Positions 5,874 to 39,359 of a stretch of DNA of 57,645 nt are shown one piece after another. Each line of letters starts with the position of its first letter. Within the stretch, counting starts at the first letter, position 1. Source of the DNA: Candidatus Aminicenantota bacterium (GTDB lineage: Bacteria; Acidobacteriota; Aminicenantia; JAMOAD01); assembly GCA_027061995.1 (NCBI GenBank), contig JAMOUT010000020.1, forward strand, positions 1 to 57,645, written 5' to 3'. A program made the translations under genes and the position numbers. The notes under the pieces were generated by a model. That model saw only the letters and a list, made by a program, of their open reading frames with translations. It did not search any database and was not told where the DNA came from.

Positions 5874-8800
5874 ATGAATAACAAAAAATTCATGCTTTTT
5901 GTTCTTATTTTATTGTTAGTTAGCTTTACTTATGCGATGAAAGATTCTCGTCTTTTACGGTTTCCCGATATCAATGGTAATCGTATAGCATTTGTTTATG
6001 CCGGAGACATTTGGACTGTTTCTTCGACAGGAGGTGATGCGAAAAGATTAACATCACACATTGGTCTTGAACTTTTTCCCAAAATATCACCGGATGGTAA
6101 ATGGATTGCTTTTTCCGCTGAATATTCAGGCTCAAGACAAATCTATATCATACCTTCCGAGGGAGGGGTGCCTAAACAACTAACTTATTATAATGATGTC
6201 GGAATTATGCCTCCGAGAGGCGGATGGGATTATGCTGTTTTGGATTGGACCCCCGACAGTAAAAAAATACTTATCAGGGCAAACAGAACACCTTACGGGA
6301 AAAGGATGGGAAAATATTATCTCGTCCCCATAGAGGGAGGTCTGGAAACACCGCTTGAGATTCCTGATGCCGGATTCGGTAAATTCTCACCTGATGCAAC
6401 GAAAATAGTTTATACCCCCATATCAAGAGAATTCAGAACATGGAAAAGAACAAAAGGGGGAAGAGCTCAGGATGTTTGGATATATGACCTTGTTAAACAT
6501 ACATCAAAAAGAATAACAAAATTCACAGGAACAGATCAACACCCCCTATGGTATAAAGATAAGATATATTTTGTATCCGACAGAGGCCCTAATGCAAGAC
6601 TCAATTTTCACTCTTATGATTTAAAAACAGGGAGCTTTTCACAAATTACTCATCATAAGGATTTTGATGTTTTATGGCCCTCGGGAAGAAACGGAGTTAT
6701 TATTTATGAAAACGGCGGATATATATATAAACTTAATCTCAATACGGGTAAAACAGAAAAATTAACCATAAATATAGACTTTGATAACCAGAATAGATTA
6801 CCCTATTTTAAAAATGTTGCAAAATATGTTTCAAGATTCGGTTATGATATCTCACCATCGGGTAAAAGAGTTGTATTTGATGCAAGGGGAGATATCTGGA
6901 CGGTTCCCGCTAAAAAAGGGATAACTTATAATCTAACAGATTCCCAGGGTGTTAAAGATTCTTATCCCGCATGGTCACCCGACGGAAGATGGATTCTTTA
7001 TTATTCAGATAAAACGGGAGAGTATGAAATATATTTAACCTCTCCAAAAGGAAAAAAAACAATTCAACTTACAAAAGACAGCCACAAATGGCGTTTTCCA
7101 GCTGTTTGGTCTCCCGATAGCACAAAAATACTCTTTTCCGATAAAGACCAAAATTTCCAATTTATGGATATCAAAACAAAAAAAATAACAATCATTGATA
7201 AAGCGAAACAATCGGATATCACTGATTACGGATGGTCTCCCGATTCAAAATGGGTTGTTTACACAAAAGAGGGTTCCAATGGTTTGGAGGAGATTTGGGT
7301 TTACTCACTCGAAAATAATGTAAAAAAACAACTGACATCGAATGAATATAATAATTTTTCACCTGTTTTTTCAAAAGATGGTAAATACATATATTTTCTC
7401 TCTCTAAGAACCTTTAATATGAATTTCTCAAGCTATGAATTTGATTTTGTTTATAATAAGGCAACTAAAATATATGCTGTAGCTCTTACAAAAGATGCTC
7501 CCAAACTGTTCCAAGATGAAAATGATGAAGAACCTGTAAAATCAAAAAGTATTAAATCCAAAACAAAGAAAAAAGGGAAAGTGAAAAAAAATATTGAAAA
7601 TGATGAATTAACAGTTAAAATAGATTTTAACGGCATAAATGACAGAATAGTTGCCTTTCCCTTAAGAGCCGGTAATTATCACGGAATTGCCGTATTAAAA
7701 GGGGGAATCCTATATCTTAAATCGGGCGGATTGTATAAATTCGATATCAAAAAAAGAAAAAGTGTTCTCATAATTAAAGGGATATCAGGGGGAAAAATAT
7801 CAGCTGACGGAAAAAAACTTTTATACAAAGCTGGTTCCAAATACGGTATTATTCCGATTGCTCCGAAGCAAAAAATCGGTAATGGTCTGCTGAATTTAAA
7901 AAATCTTACGATGAAAATCGACCCTGTTAAAGAATGGAATGAGATGTTTAGAGACGGATGGAGATTATACAGAGATTGGTTTTATGTAAAGAATATGCAC
8001 GGAGTAAATTGGAAAGGGATGTATGAAAAATACAAAAAGTTATTGCCCTTTATTGGTCATAGAGCTGACCTTGATTATATCTTCGGAGAGCTTATAGGTG
8101 AGTTAAATGTTGGACACTGTTATGTTCATTGGGGAGATTTTCCGAGAGTTAAAAGGATAGACACAGGCCTTCTCGGTGCTGATCTTACAGCCGACAAAAA
8201 AGCGGGAAGATATAAAATAGTTAAAATTTACAAAGGGGAAAATTGGAATAAAAAAACAAGATCACCCCTTACAGAGCAAGGAATTAATGTCCATGAGGGT
8301 GATTATATAATCAAATTAAATAATCATGAAGTAACTCTCAAAGATAATCCTTACAAATTCCTTGAAAATACAGTGGGAAAGCTTATTCCCATAACAGTAA
8401 ATTCAAAACCCACTATTAAAGGTGCAAAAACTTATTTGATAAAACCTATAAAAAGTGAACTCGCATTAAAACATCTTGATTGGGTTAACTCAAGAAAAGC
8501 TTTGGTGGATAAACTGTCTCACGGTAGAATAGGTTATGTTTATGTTCCCGATACCGCTGTTGACGGAAACAGAGAATTATTCAAAGGGTTTTATGCTCAA
8601 AGAGATAAAGAAGCTCTGATTGTGGATGAAAGATATAATGGCGGAGGATGGAGCCCGGGAAAAATGATAGAACTTTTATCAAGAAAGATAGTAAGCTATT
8701 GGAGAAGAAGAGGATTGGAATTAAGACCCGAACCTTTCTTTGCAATAGATGGGCCCAAGGTTATGCTTATAAATCATTATTCAAGTTCAGGCGGAGATAA

Positions 8801-9152
8801 TTTCCCTTATTGGTTTAGAAAAGCAAAATTAGGTCTTATTATAGGAACAAGATCCTGGGGAGGATTGGTCGGATACGGCTGGAGTCCTTCTCTTGAAGAC
8901 GGAGGTAGTTTTGCTATTCCTTCTTCGGGTATAGTGGGAACAGACGGTAAATATATTGTTGAAGGTGTGGGAATTTATCCTGATATAGAGGTTGAAGACA
9001 GACCCGAATTAGTGGCTCAAGGGCATGACCCGAGTCTTGAAATAGCGGTAAAAGAACTTTTAAAACAATTGAAAAAACACCCTGTTAAAAAGACTCCTAA
9101 AACTCCCCCTGATCCAAATCGTTCCAAATGGTATGACGGAGTTATCAAATAA
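5874..9152 (+). CDS. Tricorn-type S41 protease
   Basis: 1092 residues, close to the usual tricorn length. A cleavable signal peptide (1-21, ending SFTYA) sends it to the periplasm, unlike archaeal tricorn. Order: TolB/WD40-like propellers with repeated 'SPDG/SPDSK W' blades (30-520), a lysine-rich low-complexity linker (about 545-575), the tricorn C1 region with H748 in GELNVGHCYV, a PDZ-like domain (about 770-850) and an S41 core with the nucleophile S972 in SSSGGD. The acidic residue follows further on in the C-terminal core. Such proteins degrade peptides and feed amino-acid fermentation. AAAGGAG lies seven nt before the ATG. It is monocistronic, divergent from the GT2 gene and closed by a terminator. 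Confidence 0.88.
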   Translation: MNNKKFMLFVLILLLVSFTYAMKDSRLLRFPDINGNRIAFVYAGDIWTVSSTGGDAKRLTSHIGLELFPKISPDGKWIAFSAEYSGSRQIYIIPSEGGVPKQLTYYNDVGIMPPRGGWDYAVLDWTPDSKKILIRANRTPYGKRMGKYYLVPIEGGLETPLEIPDAGFGKFSPDATKIVYTPISREFRTWKRTKGGRAQDVWIYDLVKHTSKRITKFTGTDQHPLWYKDKIYFVSDRGPNARLNFHSYDLKTGSFSQITHHKDFDVLWPSGRNGVIIYENGGYIYKLNLNTGKTEKLTINIDFDNQNRLPYFKNVAKYVSRFGYDISPSGKRVVFDARGDIWTVPAKKGITYNLTDSQGVKDSYPAWSPDGRWILYYSDKTGEYEIYLTSPKGKKTIQLTKDSHKWRFPAVWSPDSTKILFSDKDQNFQFMDIKTKKITIIDKAKQSDITDYGWSPDSKWVVYTKEGSNGLEEIWVYSLENNVKKQLTSNEYNNFSPVFSKDGKYIYFLSLRTFNMNFSSYEFDFVYNKATKIYAVALTKDAPKLFQDENDEEPVKSKSIKSKTKKKGKVKKNIENDELTVKIDFNGINDRIVAFPLRAGNYHGIAVLKGGILYLKSGGLYKFDIKKRKSVLIIKGISGGKISADGKKLLYKAGSKYGIIPIAPKQKIGNGLLNLKNLTMKIDPVKEWNEMFRDGWRLYRDWFYVKNMHGVNWKGMYEKYKKLLPFIGHRADLDYIFGELIGELNVGHCYVHWGDFPRVKRIDTGLLGADLTADKKAGRYKIVKIYKGENWNKKTRSPLTEQGINVHEGDYIIKLNNHEVTLKDNPYKFLENTVGKLIPITVNSKPTIKGAKTYLIKPIKSELALKHLDWVNSRKALVDKLSHGRIGYVYVPDTAVDGNRELFKGFYAQRDKEALIVDERYNGGGWSPGKMIELLSRKIVSYWRRRGLELRPEPFFAIDGPKVMLINHYSSSGGDNFPYWFRKAKLGLIIGTRSWGGLVGYGWSPSLEDGGSFAIPSSGIVGTDGKYIVEGVGIYPDIEVEDRPELVAQGHDPSLEIAVKELLKQLKKHPVKKTPKTPPDPNRSKWYDGVIK

Positions 9153-35116: not shown

Positions 35117-37654
35117 TTATTTTTTATTATTCTCAAGAATTGCCTCCAATTTATCATCAACTTCTCTTTTTAATACATGTTTAATAAATATTTTTTCAAT
35201 TATCACAGGGTTAATCGGAATATGAAAAGCTATTTTTTTCTTTTTATCGAGATATATCTTTTTTACTTTTACGCTCTCTATCTTTTTTAATATATCATAA
35301 CCTGAAATCAGTTGCCCGAAGACAGTATATTTTCCGTCAAGGTATCTTCTCGGCGCAACACATATATAAAACTCAGTGCTTCCGCTGTCAGGGTCAACAC
35401 CTCTTGCGAGACCAACAGCCCCTATTATGTGAGGATTTTTATTAAACTCCGATTTAACCTTAGGATAATTGTTCTCTCCCCCGTCACCGGCTTGAATAAC
35501 ATGCCCTTTAACAACTCTATAAAACTCTTTCCCATTATAAAATCCGTCCCTTATCAATTTCCTGAAATTAAGTGTTGTTTTAGGTGCCTCCTTATCATAA
35601 AAAACAAAACTCATCTCACCCATATTGGTTTTAATAACACAAACCTCTCGCTTGTAAGATGAAGTTATTATCTTTTCAAGAGGTTCAACAATGGCAAGCT
35701 TAAGTTCTCCCGCAGGCTTTTTAGATTCTTTAATGGTTTTTTCAGCTTTTTCAACAAATTCATTGCTTAATTTATCCCTCTCTTTTTTCATCTTTATTGC
35801 TTGTAGCGCAAGCACTGATAGTTTAGACAAATTTTCCGATAAAGATTTTATTTCATTTAAAATAGGGTTATTCTCAATAATCGGTTCTAATTTTTCATCA
35901 TTGCTTTTCCATATATTCAATAATTTTATGATTTTTGATTCAAGAGTCTTATCTTCGGTTAAAATATATCTATCAACAATTGAAGGGAAATAATTTAATA
36001 TATCAGGGTCCGGAGTTGCAGCATCCACAAATCTCGTAAGAGGAGTGAAAATCGTCCATTTTTTTGAGCCGTGCCTTCTATAATATTTTAAAGGGATAAC
36101 AAGATCATTTAAAATTTTCATATATTTAATGTTCTCATCCCCTTTTATCCTTCTTAATATCATATCCCTATTCTTTATATGGGTAAGACCGAACTCTTCC
36201 AGCATCACTTTGATATATTTTAATCTTTTATACATATATCCCACATCTTTTATCCTTTGAGGAGACCAAAATCTCTCGGCTATCGCAGCTGTTCTGGGCC
36301 AGATTCTTGAATCTATATTTTCGGGAGAAACAAGTTCAGCCCACATAGTTGCTTCTCCCCCAAGGATTCTTTTTTCCTCCTCTTTTGCCAAACCTGAATT
36401 CTCGGGAATAGGGTCATTAAGATAATGCTCTTTTGCCGGTTGGGAAAGATCTATATAATAACCGTTGGAAAGTATTGAGTAATATCCGTTTTTTGCGGTA
36501 TCATAAAGGGTTTTTCTACCTCTCCACGATTGGATAACAACATCTTTATCCATCCCGTTTTTATATATCTCATCCCAACCTATTATCTTCTTACCCCTCT
36601 TTCTTAATATTTTGAAAATCTTTCTATTAAAATATTGCTGAAGTTCTTCGAAATCCTTAATATTATTTTTTTTCATGAACTTTTTGATTTTTTCACTTTT
36701 TTTCCATTGAACTCCGTTTACTTCATCCCCCCCTATATGGATATACTCATCAGGGAAAAGTTTACACATCTCTTTAAAAAATTTTTTTAAAAATTTATAA
36801 ACTTTTTTATTTGAAGGATCCATAACAGGATCTTTAACACCATAGGTTCTAATCATCCTGTATTTTTCGGGGATTGATGCAAGTTCTGGATAAGCCACAA
36901 GCCAACTTGCCGTATGAGCCGGCATATCAAACTCAGGCACAACTCTTATCCCCCTTTCGTCAGCGAATCTTATTATATCTTTCATCTGCGTCTTAGTATA
37001 ATAATCACCGTCGGATGCAAGAAGATGAAGTTTCGGGAAAGTTTTGCACTCTATTCTGAATCCTTGGTCATCTGTAAGATGCAGATGAAGAACATTCATC
37101 TTTAAAAAGCTCATCCCTTTGATATTTCTTTTTATAACATCAATAGGAATAAAATGTCTTGATACATCTATCATTAATCCGCGCCAATGAAAGCGAGGTT
37201 TATCCTGAATTTTAACAAAAGGGAAATAATAACCGTCCGACTCTACACTTAATAATTGATAAAGAGTTTGAAGACCTCTTATTATACCTATATCAGTGTC
37301 AGCTTGTAATTTTATTCCTCTTTCGGATATCATGATTTCATATCTCTCGTCCATTATGGAAGTAAGTTTTATACTTTTTTTATATTCAATCTCCAAAGTA
37401 TGCAATGGCTTTAAAGAGACAATATCCATCCCCGTTTTATCTGAAATCTCTTTTATAAATTCCTTAACTCCGTTTTCAACTCTACTGCTGGGGATTCCTT
37501 TTATATCAATGGTAAAACCACCCTTAACAAACAGTTTACCATTGTTCTGTTCCACTTTATAAGGGATAGGCATAAGCTTGTCAATACTATTTCCGAAACC
37601 CGATACAATTGTAAAAATCATAAAAAAGATAATTAATGTTATGTTTTTTTTCAT
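35117..37654 (-). CDS. Exported GH20 beta-hexosaminidase fused to a cyclophilin
   Basis: 845 residues. Signal peptide (1-21), GH20 non-catalytic N-domain (25-140), TIM barrel with HWRGLMIDVSRHF and the catalytic pair D310-E311 in HIGGDEVNG, a helical linker (about 530-665), then a complete cyclophilin-type prolyl isomerase (669-800) with FYRVVKGHVIQAGD and GLARGVDPDSGSTEFYI. The GH20 part releases terminal GlcNAc/GalNAc from glycans or chitin fragments. The fused isomerase could fold the enzyme or act as a separate periplasmic foldase. The junction is continuous in frame with no start site before the second domain. AGAGGAG precedes the ATG; 16 nt after the DASS gene, probably one operon. Confidence 0.9.
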   Translation of the reverse strand: MKKNITLIIFFMIFTIVSGFGNSIDKLMPIPYKVEQNNGKLFVKGGFTIDIKGIPSSRVENGVKEFIKEISDKTGMDIVSLKPLHTLEIEYKKSIKLTSIMDERYEIMISERGIKLQADTDIGIIRGLQTLYQLLSVESDGYYFPFVKIQDKPRFHWRGLMIDVSRHFIPIDVIKRNIKGMSFLKMNVLHLHLTDDQGFRIECKTFPKLHLLASDGDYYTKTQMKDIIRFADERGIRVVPEFDMPAHTASWLVAYPELASIPEKYRMIRTYGVKDPVMDPSNKKVYKFLKKFFKEMCKLFPDEYIHIGGDEVNGVQWKKSEKIKKFMKKNNIKDFEELQQYFNRKIFKILRKRGKKIIGWDEIYKNGMDKDVVIQSWRGRKTLYDTAKNGYYSILSNGYYIDLSQPAKEHYLNDPIPENSGLAKEEEKRILGGEATMWAELVSPENIDSRIWPRTAAIAERFWSPQRIKDVGYMYKRLKYIKVMLEEFGLTHIKNRDMILRRIKGDENIKYMKILNDLVIPLKYYRRHGSKKWTIFTPLTRFVDAATPDPDILNYFPSIVDRYILTEDKTLESKIIKLLNIWKSNDEKLEPIIENNPILNEIKSLSENLSKLSVLALQAIKMKKERDKLSNEFVEKAEKTIKESKKPAGELKLAIVEPLEKIITSSYKREVCVIKTNMGEMSFVFYDKEAPKTTLNFRKLIRDGFYNGKEFYRVVKGHVIQAGDGGENNYPKVKSEFNKNPHIIGAVGLARGVDPDSGSTEFYICVAPRRYLDGKYTVFGQLISGYDILKKIESVKVKKIYLDKKKKIAFHIPINPVIIEKIFIKHVLKREVDDKLEAILENNKK

Positions 37655-37670: not shown

Positions 37671-39359
37671 TTATTTTGAAAAAACAGGTATATAAAATTT
37701 ATAAAAATAAAGTAAAATCGTTATTAAAAGGATGGAAATAAAATTCAGGAAAATTCCCGCTTTCATCATATCTTTTATCTTAATATATCCCGAACCGAAA
37801 ACCAGAGCATTAGGAGGTGTTGCAACAGGAAGCATAAAAGCCATTGATGCTCCTATGGCACCAGCGGTCATTAATACAAGAGGGTTATGTGCGGTTGTTA
37901 ATCCTATCGAAAAAAGAATGGGAAGCATCATATTCGTGGATGCCGTATTTGAAGTTATCTCCGTTAAAAAAACCATCAGAAAAACCGTTGATAACAAAAC
38001 AATTAAAAATGATACGGAATTAAACGAAGTTAATGATTGTGCAATATATGAAGCGGCTCCCGTTTTATCAAGTCCTGTCCCCAGCGCGAGACCTCCCCCG
38101 AAAAGCAGAAGAGTTCCCCACGGGAGTTTTTTATTGGAATTCCAATCAAGTGTAAATTCCCACTTTTTAAAATCAACGGGAATAATATAAAAAAGCAGTA
38201 TTGCAAAAACACCAACCACCGCATCATTTACCCAAGGTAAATGGAATAAATCCTTTATATTTTTCTCAAATATCCATATTAATGCCACAATTATAAATAT
38301 GATAAGTGTATTCTTTTCCCCTCTACTAAATTTCCCCATTTTTCCAAGTTCCGATTTTATCCGATTTCTCCCGCCGGTTACATCAACCTTCTCAATAGGG
38401 AAAAGTTTTATCAGTATCATAAAAGTTACGGGAAGCATTATAATCGTTATCGGAAGTCCTATAAGAAGCCAATTGCCGAAAGTTATTTTAACTCCCAAAA
38501 GGGTATCGGCAAACCCTGCAAGAACCACATTAGGCGGTGTTCCTATAAGTGTCCCTACCCCACCGATTGATGCGGAGTAAGCTATTCCGAGCATCAAAAC
38601 TTTTCCGAAATTACTTTTACCCGCATTATTTGTTGCTGTTGCTATTATCCCGAGCCCTATGGGTAACATCATCGCTGTTGTAGCGGTATTTGATATGAAC
38701 ATTGAGAGAAAAGCCGTTATAAGCATAAAAGAGAATATTATTTTATAAGGGGTGAAATCGGTTTTTGATAAAAAGAACAGAGATATCCTTCTGTGAAGAT
38801 TCCATTTTTTCATGGCTTCCGCAATTGTAAATCCAGCGAGAAAAAGGATTATCAAATAATGCATATACAAATGTGCGGGATTAAAAAATCCCGGGAAAGA
38901 GATATATTTCAGATTGGATATATTTAAAACAGGAAACAAAAGCAGGGGTAAAAGGGAGGTTATCGGTATCGGGATAGCTTCGGTTATCCAAAAGATAGCC
39001 ATTAAAACGGCTATTGCAATAGTCATCTTTATAGCGTTTGCTTGGATATAAAACAGATCTGATAATCTTTTACCTTTTCCCTTTGATAATTTAATCCCTT
39101 TATAACCGGTTTTTGAAAAATTCTTAGGAACTTTCACAAGCACATTTTTTGATTTTTTAGAAAAAATGATAAAATTTTCTTTTGTAATATCGGAAGCTTT
39201 TTTTATCCCTATATTTTGTAAAACATGATTATCAGCATGAGACAACACTGTCTTAGAACCAATATAAAGCATGGTTTTGGGAACCGGAGCCACTATAATC
39301 AGAACGAAGAAAAATACACCGGAAATAAATCCGTAAAGCTTATAATTAATTCCATTCAT
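37671..39359 (-). CDS. DASS/SLC13-family dicarboxylate:Na+ symporter
   Basis: 562 residues, about 12 spans. Both SNT signature motifs of the family are present: SNTATTAMMLPIG (from 223) and SNTASTNMMLPI (from 470), each followed by a hairpin with conserved prolines (TPPNVVLAG, TPPNALVFG). They carry the Na+ and carboxylate sites. A polar insertion of about 75 residues (31-108) follows the first span, larger than usual and probably periplasmic. Substrates such as succinate, fumarate or malate fit an anaerobe with AspA. Its promoter is perfect but the ATG follows the -10 by only five nt, and there is no Shine-Dalgarno. Confidence 0.88.
   Translation of the reverse strand: MNGINYKLYGFISGVFFFVLIIVAPVPKTMLYIGSKTVLSHADNHVLQNIGIKKASDITKENFIIFSKKSKNVLVKVPKNFSKTGYKGIKLSKGKGKRLSDLFYIQANAIKMTIAIAVLMAIFWITEAIPIPITSLLPLLLFPVLNISNLKYISFPGFFNPAHLYMHYLIILFLAGFTIAEAMKKWNLHRRISLFFLSKTDFTPYKIIFSFMLITAFLSMFISNTATTAMMLPIGLGIIATATNNAGKSNFGKVLMLGIAYSASIGGVGTLIGTPPNVVLAGFADTLLGVKITFGNWLLIGLPITIIMLPVTFMILIKLFPIEKVDVTGGRNRIKSELGKMGKFSRGEKNTLIIFIIVALIWIFEKNIKDLFHLPWVNDAVVGVFAILLFYIIPVDFKKWEFTLDWNSNKKLPWGTLLLFGGGLALGTGLDKTGAASYIAQSLTSFNSVSFLIVLLSTVFLMVFLTEITSNTASTNMMLPILFSIGLTTAHNPLVLMTAGAIGASMAFMLPVATPPNALVFGSGYIKIKDMMKAGIFLNFISILLITILLYFYKFYIPVFSK

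Follow-up and report, generated by a model that had tools for sequence, protein, structure and literature searches.

Cyclophilins are textbook folding helpers and are usually found as free proteins, and the question raised by the present locus is what a cyclophilin does at the end of a secreted sugar-cutting enzyme. The gene in question lies on a stretch of 57,645 nucleotides (contig JAMOUT010000020.1, assembly GCA_027061995.1, Candidatus Aminicenantota bacterium), hereafter called the window, and was found to encode a glycoside hydrolase family 20 (GH20) beta-hexosaminidase joined in one chain to a cyclophilin domain. The apparent sole cyclophilin of the genome is locked onto this secreted enzyme, its active site is altered throughout its subfamily, and within the class Candidatus Aminicenantes fusions of this subfamily to several further proteins occur. 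The reading preferred here, to which a probability of about one half is given, is that of a real two-enzyme protein, in which a variant cyclophilin would ride on an exported hexosaminidase and act in trans.

The fusion gene was found to run in a single frame with both domains recognised by Pfam (Table 1), in agreement with the preliminary description of the locus, in which one exported chain carrying the two domains had been proposed. The signal peptide was judged by eye from its basic n-region and hydrophobic core, and no prediction program was used. The GH20 domain scored 335.2 bits against a Pfam cut-off of 22.3 for PF00728, followed by a Pro_isomerase match (PF00160) at residues 673-799 (E 3e-34, 119 bits against a cut-off of 21.7). 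The full-length AlphaFold2 (AF2) model reached a predicted local distance difference test (pLDDT) value of 83.4 and a predicted template modelling score (pTM) of 0.74. The model shows the final helix of the enzyme's C-terminal bundle (656-665) passing straight into the first cyclophilin strand (668-676) with no flexible linker between them; the cyclophilin is therefore an end-to-end addition onto a finished enzyme. The C-termini of GH20-alone relatives were found to end at the same point as the bundle end of the fusion.

Table 1. Features of the GH20-cyclophilin fusion gene and its neighbour, in positions of the window; residue numbers are those of the fusion protein
Feature	Position	Strand	Basis or remark
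GH20-cyclophilin fusion gene	35117..37654	-	845 aa, single frame, ATG start; open reading frame (ORF), Pfam, same fusion in G001, G003 and G004
Sec-type signal peptide lacking a lipobox, about residues 1-22	37589..37654	-	By eye; model helix 2-18
GH20b non-catalytic N-terminal domain, residues 27-151	37202..37576	-	PF02838
GH20 catalytic TIM barrel, residues 155-465	36260..37192	-	PF00728 E 7.2e-100; 6yhh E 7.9e-164
Catalytic pair D310-E311	36722..36727	-	Aligned with FjGH20 D316-E317; identical in 4/4 fusions
Helical bundle at the C-terminal end of GH20, about residues 491-664	35663..36184	-	6yhh alignment; PMC7426924 (available part)
Cyclophilin domain, residues 666-825, variant subfamily	35180..35659	-	Pfam, subfamily hidden Markov model (HMM), AF2 model, PDB cyclophilin matches
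Subfamily-specific hairpin and final strand at the C-terminus, residues 797-828, invariant H811, motif AFHxPxxPV	35171..35266	-	Alignment; model strands
SLC13/DASS-type transporter gene	37671..39359	-	PF00939; its end lies 16 bp ahead of the fusion gene start, same strand

The same full-length fusion was found in three further genomes (G001, G003 and G004), which belong to the family of the window organism and to another genus, at 55-56% identity; the alignments spanned residues 2-824, 4-824 and 2-824 of the query in a comparison that covered 60 relatives and 142 genomes of the class. An artefact, by which assembly or sequencing would have joined two separate genes, might be suspected in a draft assembly of 104 contigs, and relatives with two separate genes had been named in the preliminary description as the sign of it. 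The chance of an artefact is practically negligible, because the three genomes carry the same in-frame, full-length junction on different contigs and the junction columns align. No split version of GH20 and cyclophilin was found in the five genomes of the family, the fifth of which (G002, 85% complete) contained no GH20 match and one free-standing cyclophilin. No cyclophilin gene or decayed remnant was found beside the GH20-alone genes of 36 loci in a six-frame HMM scan (best E 3). A match in G474 that seemingly extended to residue 722 was rejected as read-through of stops into unrelated sequence. A GH20 match (counted at E <= 1e-60) was present in 72 of the 142 class genomes; the fusion was present in only four, and 68 of the 72 contained no cyclophilin in the GH20 protein.

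Two separate GH20 fusion events are not supported, since the GH20 tree of 18 sequences unites the four fusions in one clade (Shimodaira-Hasegawa-like approximate likelihood ratio test, SH-aLRT, 96), and the cyclophilin tree, in which the four GH20-fused copies were not joined, did not reject a single clade (approximately unbiased, AU, test p 0.444). The simplest reading of these trees is one fusion event in the ancestor of one Aminicenantia family. The ratios of nonsynonymous to synonymous substitution rates (dN/dS) were 0.062 for GH20 and 0.058 for the cyclophilin in the pair G004/G001, and 0.072 and 0.047, respectively, in the pair G003/G001, whereas some other dS values were saturated and gave no usable ratio; both domains are under purifying selection. 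The cyclophilin was found to be the slower part, with 90-92% identity between G003 and the other two species of its genus against 76-77% for GH20, and the helical bundle was the fastest-changing part, with 30-31% identity between the window copy and the other genus.

The closest solved relative of the GH20 half was the chitobiase FjGH20 of Flavobacterium johnsoniae (6yhh), which aligned with residues 26-662 of the query and ranked first in a Foldseek search with the full-length model (template modelling score, TM, 0.83 by target). R166, which we take to be the conserved substrate-binding Arg of GH20, was aligned with the solved GH20 enzymes and was identical in all four fusions. The residues D310 and E311, named in the preliminary description of a complete GH20 enzyme, were found to be the exact Asp-Glu pair by alignment with D316-E317 of FjGH20, and Asp316 is named in the available part of the FjGH20 paper (PMC7426924). 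In the same part of that paper, a C-terminal eight-helix bundle is described at residues 504-673, a loop of which carries Tyr538 into the substrate pocket; Y525 of the window protein was aligned with this active-site Tyr and was conserved in all four fusions. The 6yhh alignment and the model helices place a bundle of this type with its Tyr-bearing loop in the window protein, the loop (526-540) being modelled at pLDDT below 50. The segment that had been called a helical linker thus belongs to the enzyme.

The GH20 half is expected to act as an ordinary exo-beta-N-acetylhexosaminidase, exported, chitobiase-like and of the FjGH20 type. Its substrates outside the cytoplasm would be chito-oligosaccharides or further glycans, from which it would remove terminal N-acetylglucosamine (GlcNAc) or N-acetylgalactosamine (GalNAc). 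Chito-oligosaccharides are a likely substrate, since an exported GH18 lipoprotein was found to be encoded in the same genome, beside a SIS-domain gene. The nagA-like matches found in five of six genomes were all under the curated cut-off, and GlcNAc catabolism by NagA is therefore not established. The GH20 proteins of family f7 (L133:1863-4559, L134:1844-4507 and L135:1792-4497) were found to contain another C-terminal domain of about 190 amino acids at the place of the cyclophilin, and no Pfam match was found for it.

The cyclophilin domain modelled alone reached pLDDT 93.8, and the Foldseek matches listed for it were PDB cyclophilins, most of them at TM 0.80-0.87; some of these were complexes or constructs, in which the matched chain was taken to be the cyclophilin. 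The preliminary description had placed a complete cyclophilin at residues 669-800. Its fold was upheld by these values, whereas its end had to be moved to about residue 825 (subfamily HMM 666-825; model strands to 828), and several active-site positions were found to differ from CypA. The domain belongs to a subfamily which separated from 12 other cyclophilins with support 100/99 in the tree. A total of 39 subfamily rows were aligned, of which 38 had a letter at the key columns, and the 12 other cyclophilin rows served as outgroup. The positions were mapped by motif and residue spacing onto what we take to be the residue numbers of CypA.

Arg55 (window R713), Gln63 (window Q721) and Leu122 were found to be kept in all 38 subfamily rows. 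Phe60 was replaced by His (window H718) in all 38 rows, whereas the 12 outgroup rows contained Phe without exception. Gln111 was replaced by Glu (window E761) in 37 rows against Gln in 11 of the 12 outgroup rows, followed by the replacement of Phe113 by Tyr (window Y763) in 38 rows against Phe in 10 of 12. His54 was replaced by Tyr, and an extra His (H811) was present in the added C-terminal hairpin, again in 38/38 rows. The Trp121 column was occupied by His in 35 rows and by Tyr in three, including the window copy (Y771); the active-site positions are those listed in the available part of PMC2911226. Because the two peptide patterns used for locus collection contain some of the scored positions, the 19 rows whose contigs, matched by length, were also recovered by pattern-free whole-genome HMM searches were checked, and all contained H, E, Y and H at the four columns. 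A profile search of the contigs with alignment A1 gave 40 loci, among which L110-L112 were weak; an earlier contig scan with the whole fusion protein as query gave no match.

The standard proline pocket (Phe60, Phe113, Gln111 and Trp or His121) was thus found as H718, Y763, E761 and Y771 in the window copy, and the domain is for this reason classed by its cyclophilin fold and not counted among the standard isomerases. In human cyclophilins, His at position 121 allows cyclosporin binding, the Trp121Tyr variant of PPIA lost activity, and three divergent isoforms were inactive on the standard peptide, with binding nonetheless seen (PMC2911226, available part). The changes F60A and F113A reduce the kcat/Km of CypA (PMC2643488, available part), and AquaCyp300, in which Gln111 is replaced by Asp, has low and selective activity (PMC4898713, available part). 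With such a variant site isomerase activity cannot be assumed, and that of the window cyclophilin is uncertain.

The PF00160 search covered 26 chosen genomes, and the fused domain was found to be the sole match in all four fusion genomes (95-99% complete). Six of the seven genomes of family f4 contained no cyclophilin and one contained a free-standing copy; the genomes carrying other cyclophilin fusions contained 2-4 matches each. The four fusion genomes were also found to encode parvulins (2-3) and FKBPs (2), and two parvulins and one FKBP of the window's genome appear exported by eye. The fusion is therefore the only cyclophilin, not the only envelope prolyl isomerase. Other cyclophilin architectures were present in the phylum, namely two tandem cyclophilin domains in a protein of 373 aa (L072:1447-2568, minus strand) and a lipoprotein with HEAT repeats whose C-terminus is formed by a cyclophilin from a different subfamily (L043:2640-4580, minus strand).

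The suggestion of the preliminary description that the isomerase could assist the folding of the glycosidase is not favoured; its second suggestion, an action on glycoprotein substrates, is a mere possibility. Such a foldase in cis, by which slow prolyl isomerisation in the attached GH20 partner would be catalysed, would suit the covalent C-terminal placement, the rigid junction in the model and the peptidyl-prolyl isomerase fold of the domain. It is nevertheless unlikely, because so many relatives are unfused (the 68 of 72 genomes given above), no proline column was gained, and members of the subfamily are also attached to unrelated partners and elsewhere mostly stand alone. A higher proline count in the fused GH20 cores was considered and the opposite was found, with 20-22 prolines against 22-32 in unfused cores, to which AT-rich codon use may contribute. 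The C-terminal domain moreover emerges last in translation, and its active site is altered.

The subfamily was found in 15 of the 142 class genomes, fused in 12 and alone in three. The fusions comprised four GH20-cyclophilin, three BNR_2-cyclophilin, two RhaT-cyclophilin, one RhaT-BNR_2-cyclophilin (one chain of 844 aa), one cyclophilin-C69, the ORF of which runs off the contig end, and one cyclophilin-glyoxalase protein; a rhodanese-cyclophilin (L109:511-2148), the frame of which is broken by undetermined bases, was left out of the tally. The fusions to a RhaT-like transporter, to the sialidase-like BNR_2, or to both were located in L101/L031, L087/L027, L094/L028, L098, L049 and L096/L030. 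In L099:5791-7671, a signal peptide and cyclophilin lie ahead of a C69 dipeptidase, the N-terminal cysteine of which would become internal, and in L093:5857-7308 they lie ahead of a glyoxalase-like sequence. The non-GH20 fusions formed one tight group (100/100; 9 rows, including the free-standing L092) apart from the GH20-fused copies, and partners therefore seem to have changed quickly there. Outside the class (Thermoanaerobaculia, Holophagae and Gammaproteobacteria), the copies were mostly free-standing exported proteins, export being judged by eye on part of them.

Part of the partner choice reflects gene neighbourhood. The RhaT, BNR_2 and cyclophilin genes were found to lie together in genus g5, and at the free-standing locus L081 a glyoxalase gene ends 14 bp upstream of the cyclophilin, followed by a C69 peptidase gene about 3 kb downstream; both are fusion partners in Aminicenantia. 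A cluster of free-standing cyclophilin, MGMT-like gene, AI-2E-like membrane protein and small lipoprotein recurred in L081, L107 and L076 (the Pfam scan covered L081, and L107 and L076 were read by eye), and the C69 peptidase was also present in the L081 and L107 clusters. No constant genomic partner of the free-standing cyclophilins was common to 13 loci inspected by eye. The echo of neighbours among the fusion partners (those of genus g5, and those of L081 that recur in L093 and L099) is what would be expected if the fusions were function-neutral, that is, chance mergers in which the joining itself serves no purpose and the halves work as before, and the operon context of the GH20 fusion is likewise not conserved. 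A neutral merger is quite improbable here because the fused state is long persistent: two genera that share about 55% identity retain it, selection acts on both domains, and no split version occurs in the five genomes of the family.

The partners also bear on the main rival of the preferred reading, in which the cyclophilin would be a targeting module comparable to a lectin or carbohydrate-binding module (CBM), binding proline stretches of glycoproteins or matrix proteins and bringing the hexosaminidase to its glycan. Other GH20 enzymes often contain C-terminal lectin or CBM domains (PMC4449183, available part), the unnamed domain of the f7 GH20s occupies the same place, the proline-pocket changes and the Tyr at Trp121 suggest binding over catalysis (compare PMC2911226, available part), and some of the other partners (BNR_2 and C69) act on glycans or peptides. 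Binding is a prediction, however, the RhaT and glyoxalase partners do not suit glycoprotein targeting, and Arg55 and Gln63, which a pure binder would not need, are kept in 38/38 rows. A targeting role is considered a possible explanation, held with considerable doubt.

Under the preferred reading of a cyclophilin acting in trans, the C-terminus of an FjGH20-type hexosaminidase would have received once, in that family ancestor, a cyclophilin from a separate exported subfamily. The cyclophilin would be an autonomous module that works on other exported or extracellular proteins, either by specialised prolyl isomerisation or by binding proline peptides, and the hexosaminidase would serve as its export vehicle and location tag, not as its folding client. 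A job of its own in trans is probable because the cyclophilin is the slowest-evolving part, is the sole cyclophilin of the genome and occurs free-standing elsewhere. From the altered proline pocket (F60H, Q111E and F113Y) a narrow or weak isomerase or binder is predicted, not a general foldase. This reading builds on what the sequences contain: the fusion and its conservation, the intact GH20 catalytic residues, the variant cyclophilin site, the sole detected cyclophilin and the recurrent fusions of the subfamily.

Several points weigh against it. The full-length model is weak, with pLDDT below 50, at residues 310-314 and 526-540. Isomerase activity could have been lost through the substitutions in and next to the active site and, for the window copy, through the Tyr at Trp121. 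The parvulins and FKBPs are present, and loss of the fusion need not strip the envelope of prolyl isomerases. The fusion lineage is a single one, and four genomes are a small sample. The activities of both halves are predictions from sequence.

A wider proposal, which is speculative and rather doubtful as a whole, is that the exported cyclophilins of this subfamily form a class not yet described, marked by a rebuilt proline pocket (His60, Glu111, Tyr113 and the invariant hairpin His). They would no longer serve as general foldases and would instead have selected proline-containing substrates, which they would act on or bind. In Aminicenantia the module would be coupled to exported enzymes for the breakdown of glycans and peptides (hexosaminidase, BNR_2 and C69), and one tethered pair might open and trim proline-rich glycoproteins. 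Since both halves look functional, the system bears on cyclophilins as substrate-handling modules of degradative enzymes. The function of the His60/Glu111 pocket is of further interest, more so if the variant pocket has a chemistry or substrates of its own.

In the three further genomes with the fusion (L032-L034), the SLC13/DASS-type neighbour seen in the window was not conserved, and the fusion gene was preceded by a zinc alcohol dehydrogenase-type gene and a class I/II aminotransferase-fold gene; this pair looks like tdh and kbl of threonine breakdown. Elsewhere in the window (5874-9152, plus strand), a gene for a Tricorn-like protease of 1092 aa was found, with PD40 repeats and Tricorn PDZ, C1 and S41 domains.

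Neither a GH20-cyclophilin fusion nor Aminicenantes cyclophilins were found in literature titles and abstract openings, a search that lay outside subscription papers, preprints and the InterPro/UniProt architecture tables. Each half is of a known kind, and no account of their combination, of the fixed variant site or of the recurrent fusions turned up in the literature searched. The word "isomerase" is absent from the GH20 domain-organisation survey (PMC4449183).

Among known systems, FjGH20 (6yhh; PMC7426924, available part) shares with the window protein the N-terminal beta domain, the TIM barrel with the D-E pair, the eight-helix bundle and the active-site Tyr (Tyr538/Y525), whereas its chain of 673 residues ends after the bundle without a cyclophilin, and the window organism belongs to the Acidobacteriota. 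The GH20 enzymes with C-terminal lectin, CBM or Ig-like domains (PMC4449183, available part) likewise contain a GH20b-GH20 core followed by a C-terminal addition, but the additions named there are carbohydrate-binding or Ig-like, unlike the cyclophilin of the window. The other fusions of the subfamily (BNR_2, RhaT, C69 and glyoxalase) contain the common subfamily signature and differ in partners, in cyclophilin-tree clade and in genera. The standard cyclophilins (PF00160; E. coli cyclophilin B and human PPIA) share the fold, Arg55, Gln63 and Leu122, whereas in the subfamily F60H, Q111E, F113Y and H54Y are fixed or nearly so and an extra hairpin with His811 is present. The AquaCyps of marine Alphaproteobacteria (PMC4898713, available part) are likewise periplasmic cyclophilins with added non-catalytic sequence, and AquaCyp300 has an altered site. 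Their extensions form a NIC domain (N- and C-terminal extensions and insert) around one cyclophilin with no enzyme fusion, and AquaCyp300 keeps Phe60, whereas the window domain was found by alignment and model to consist of 160 residues with no such extensions.

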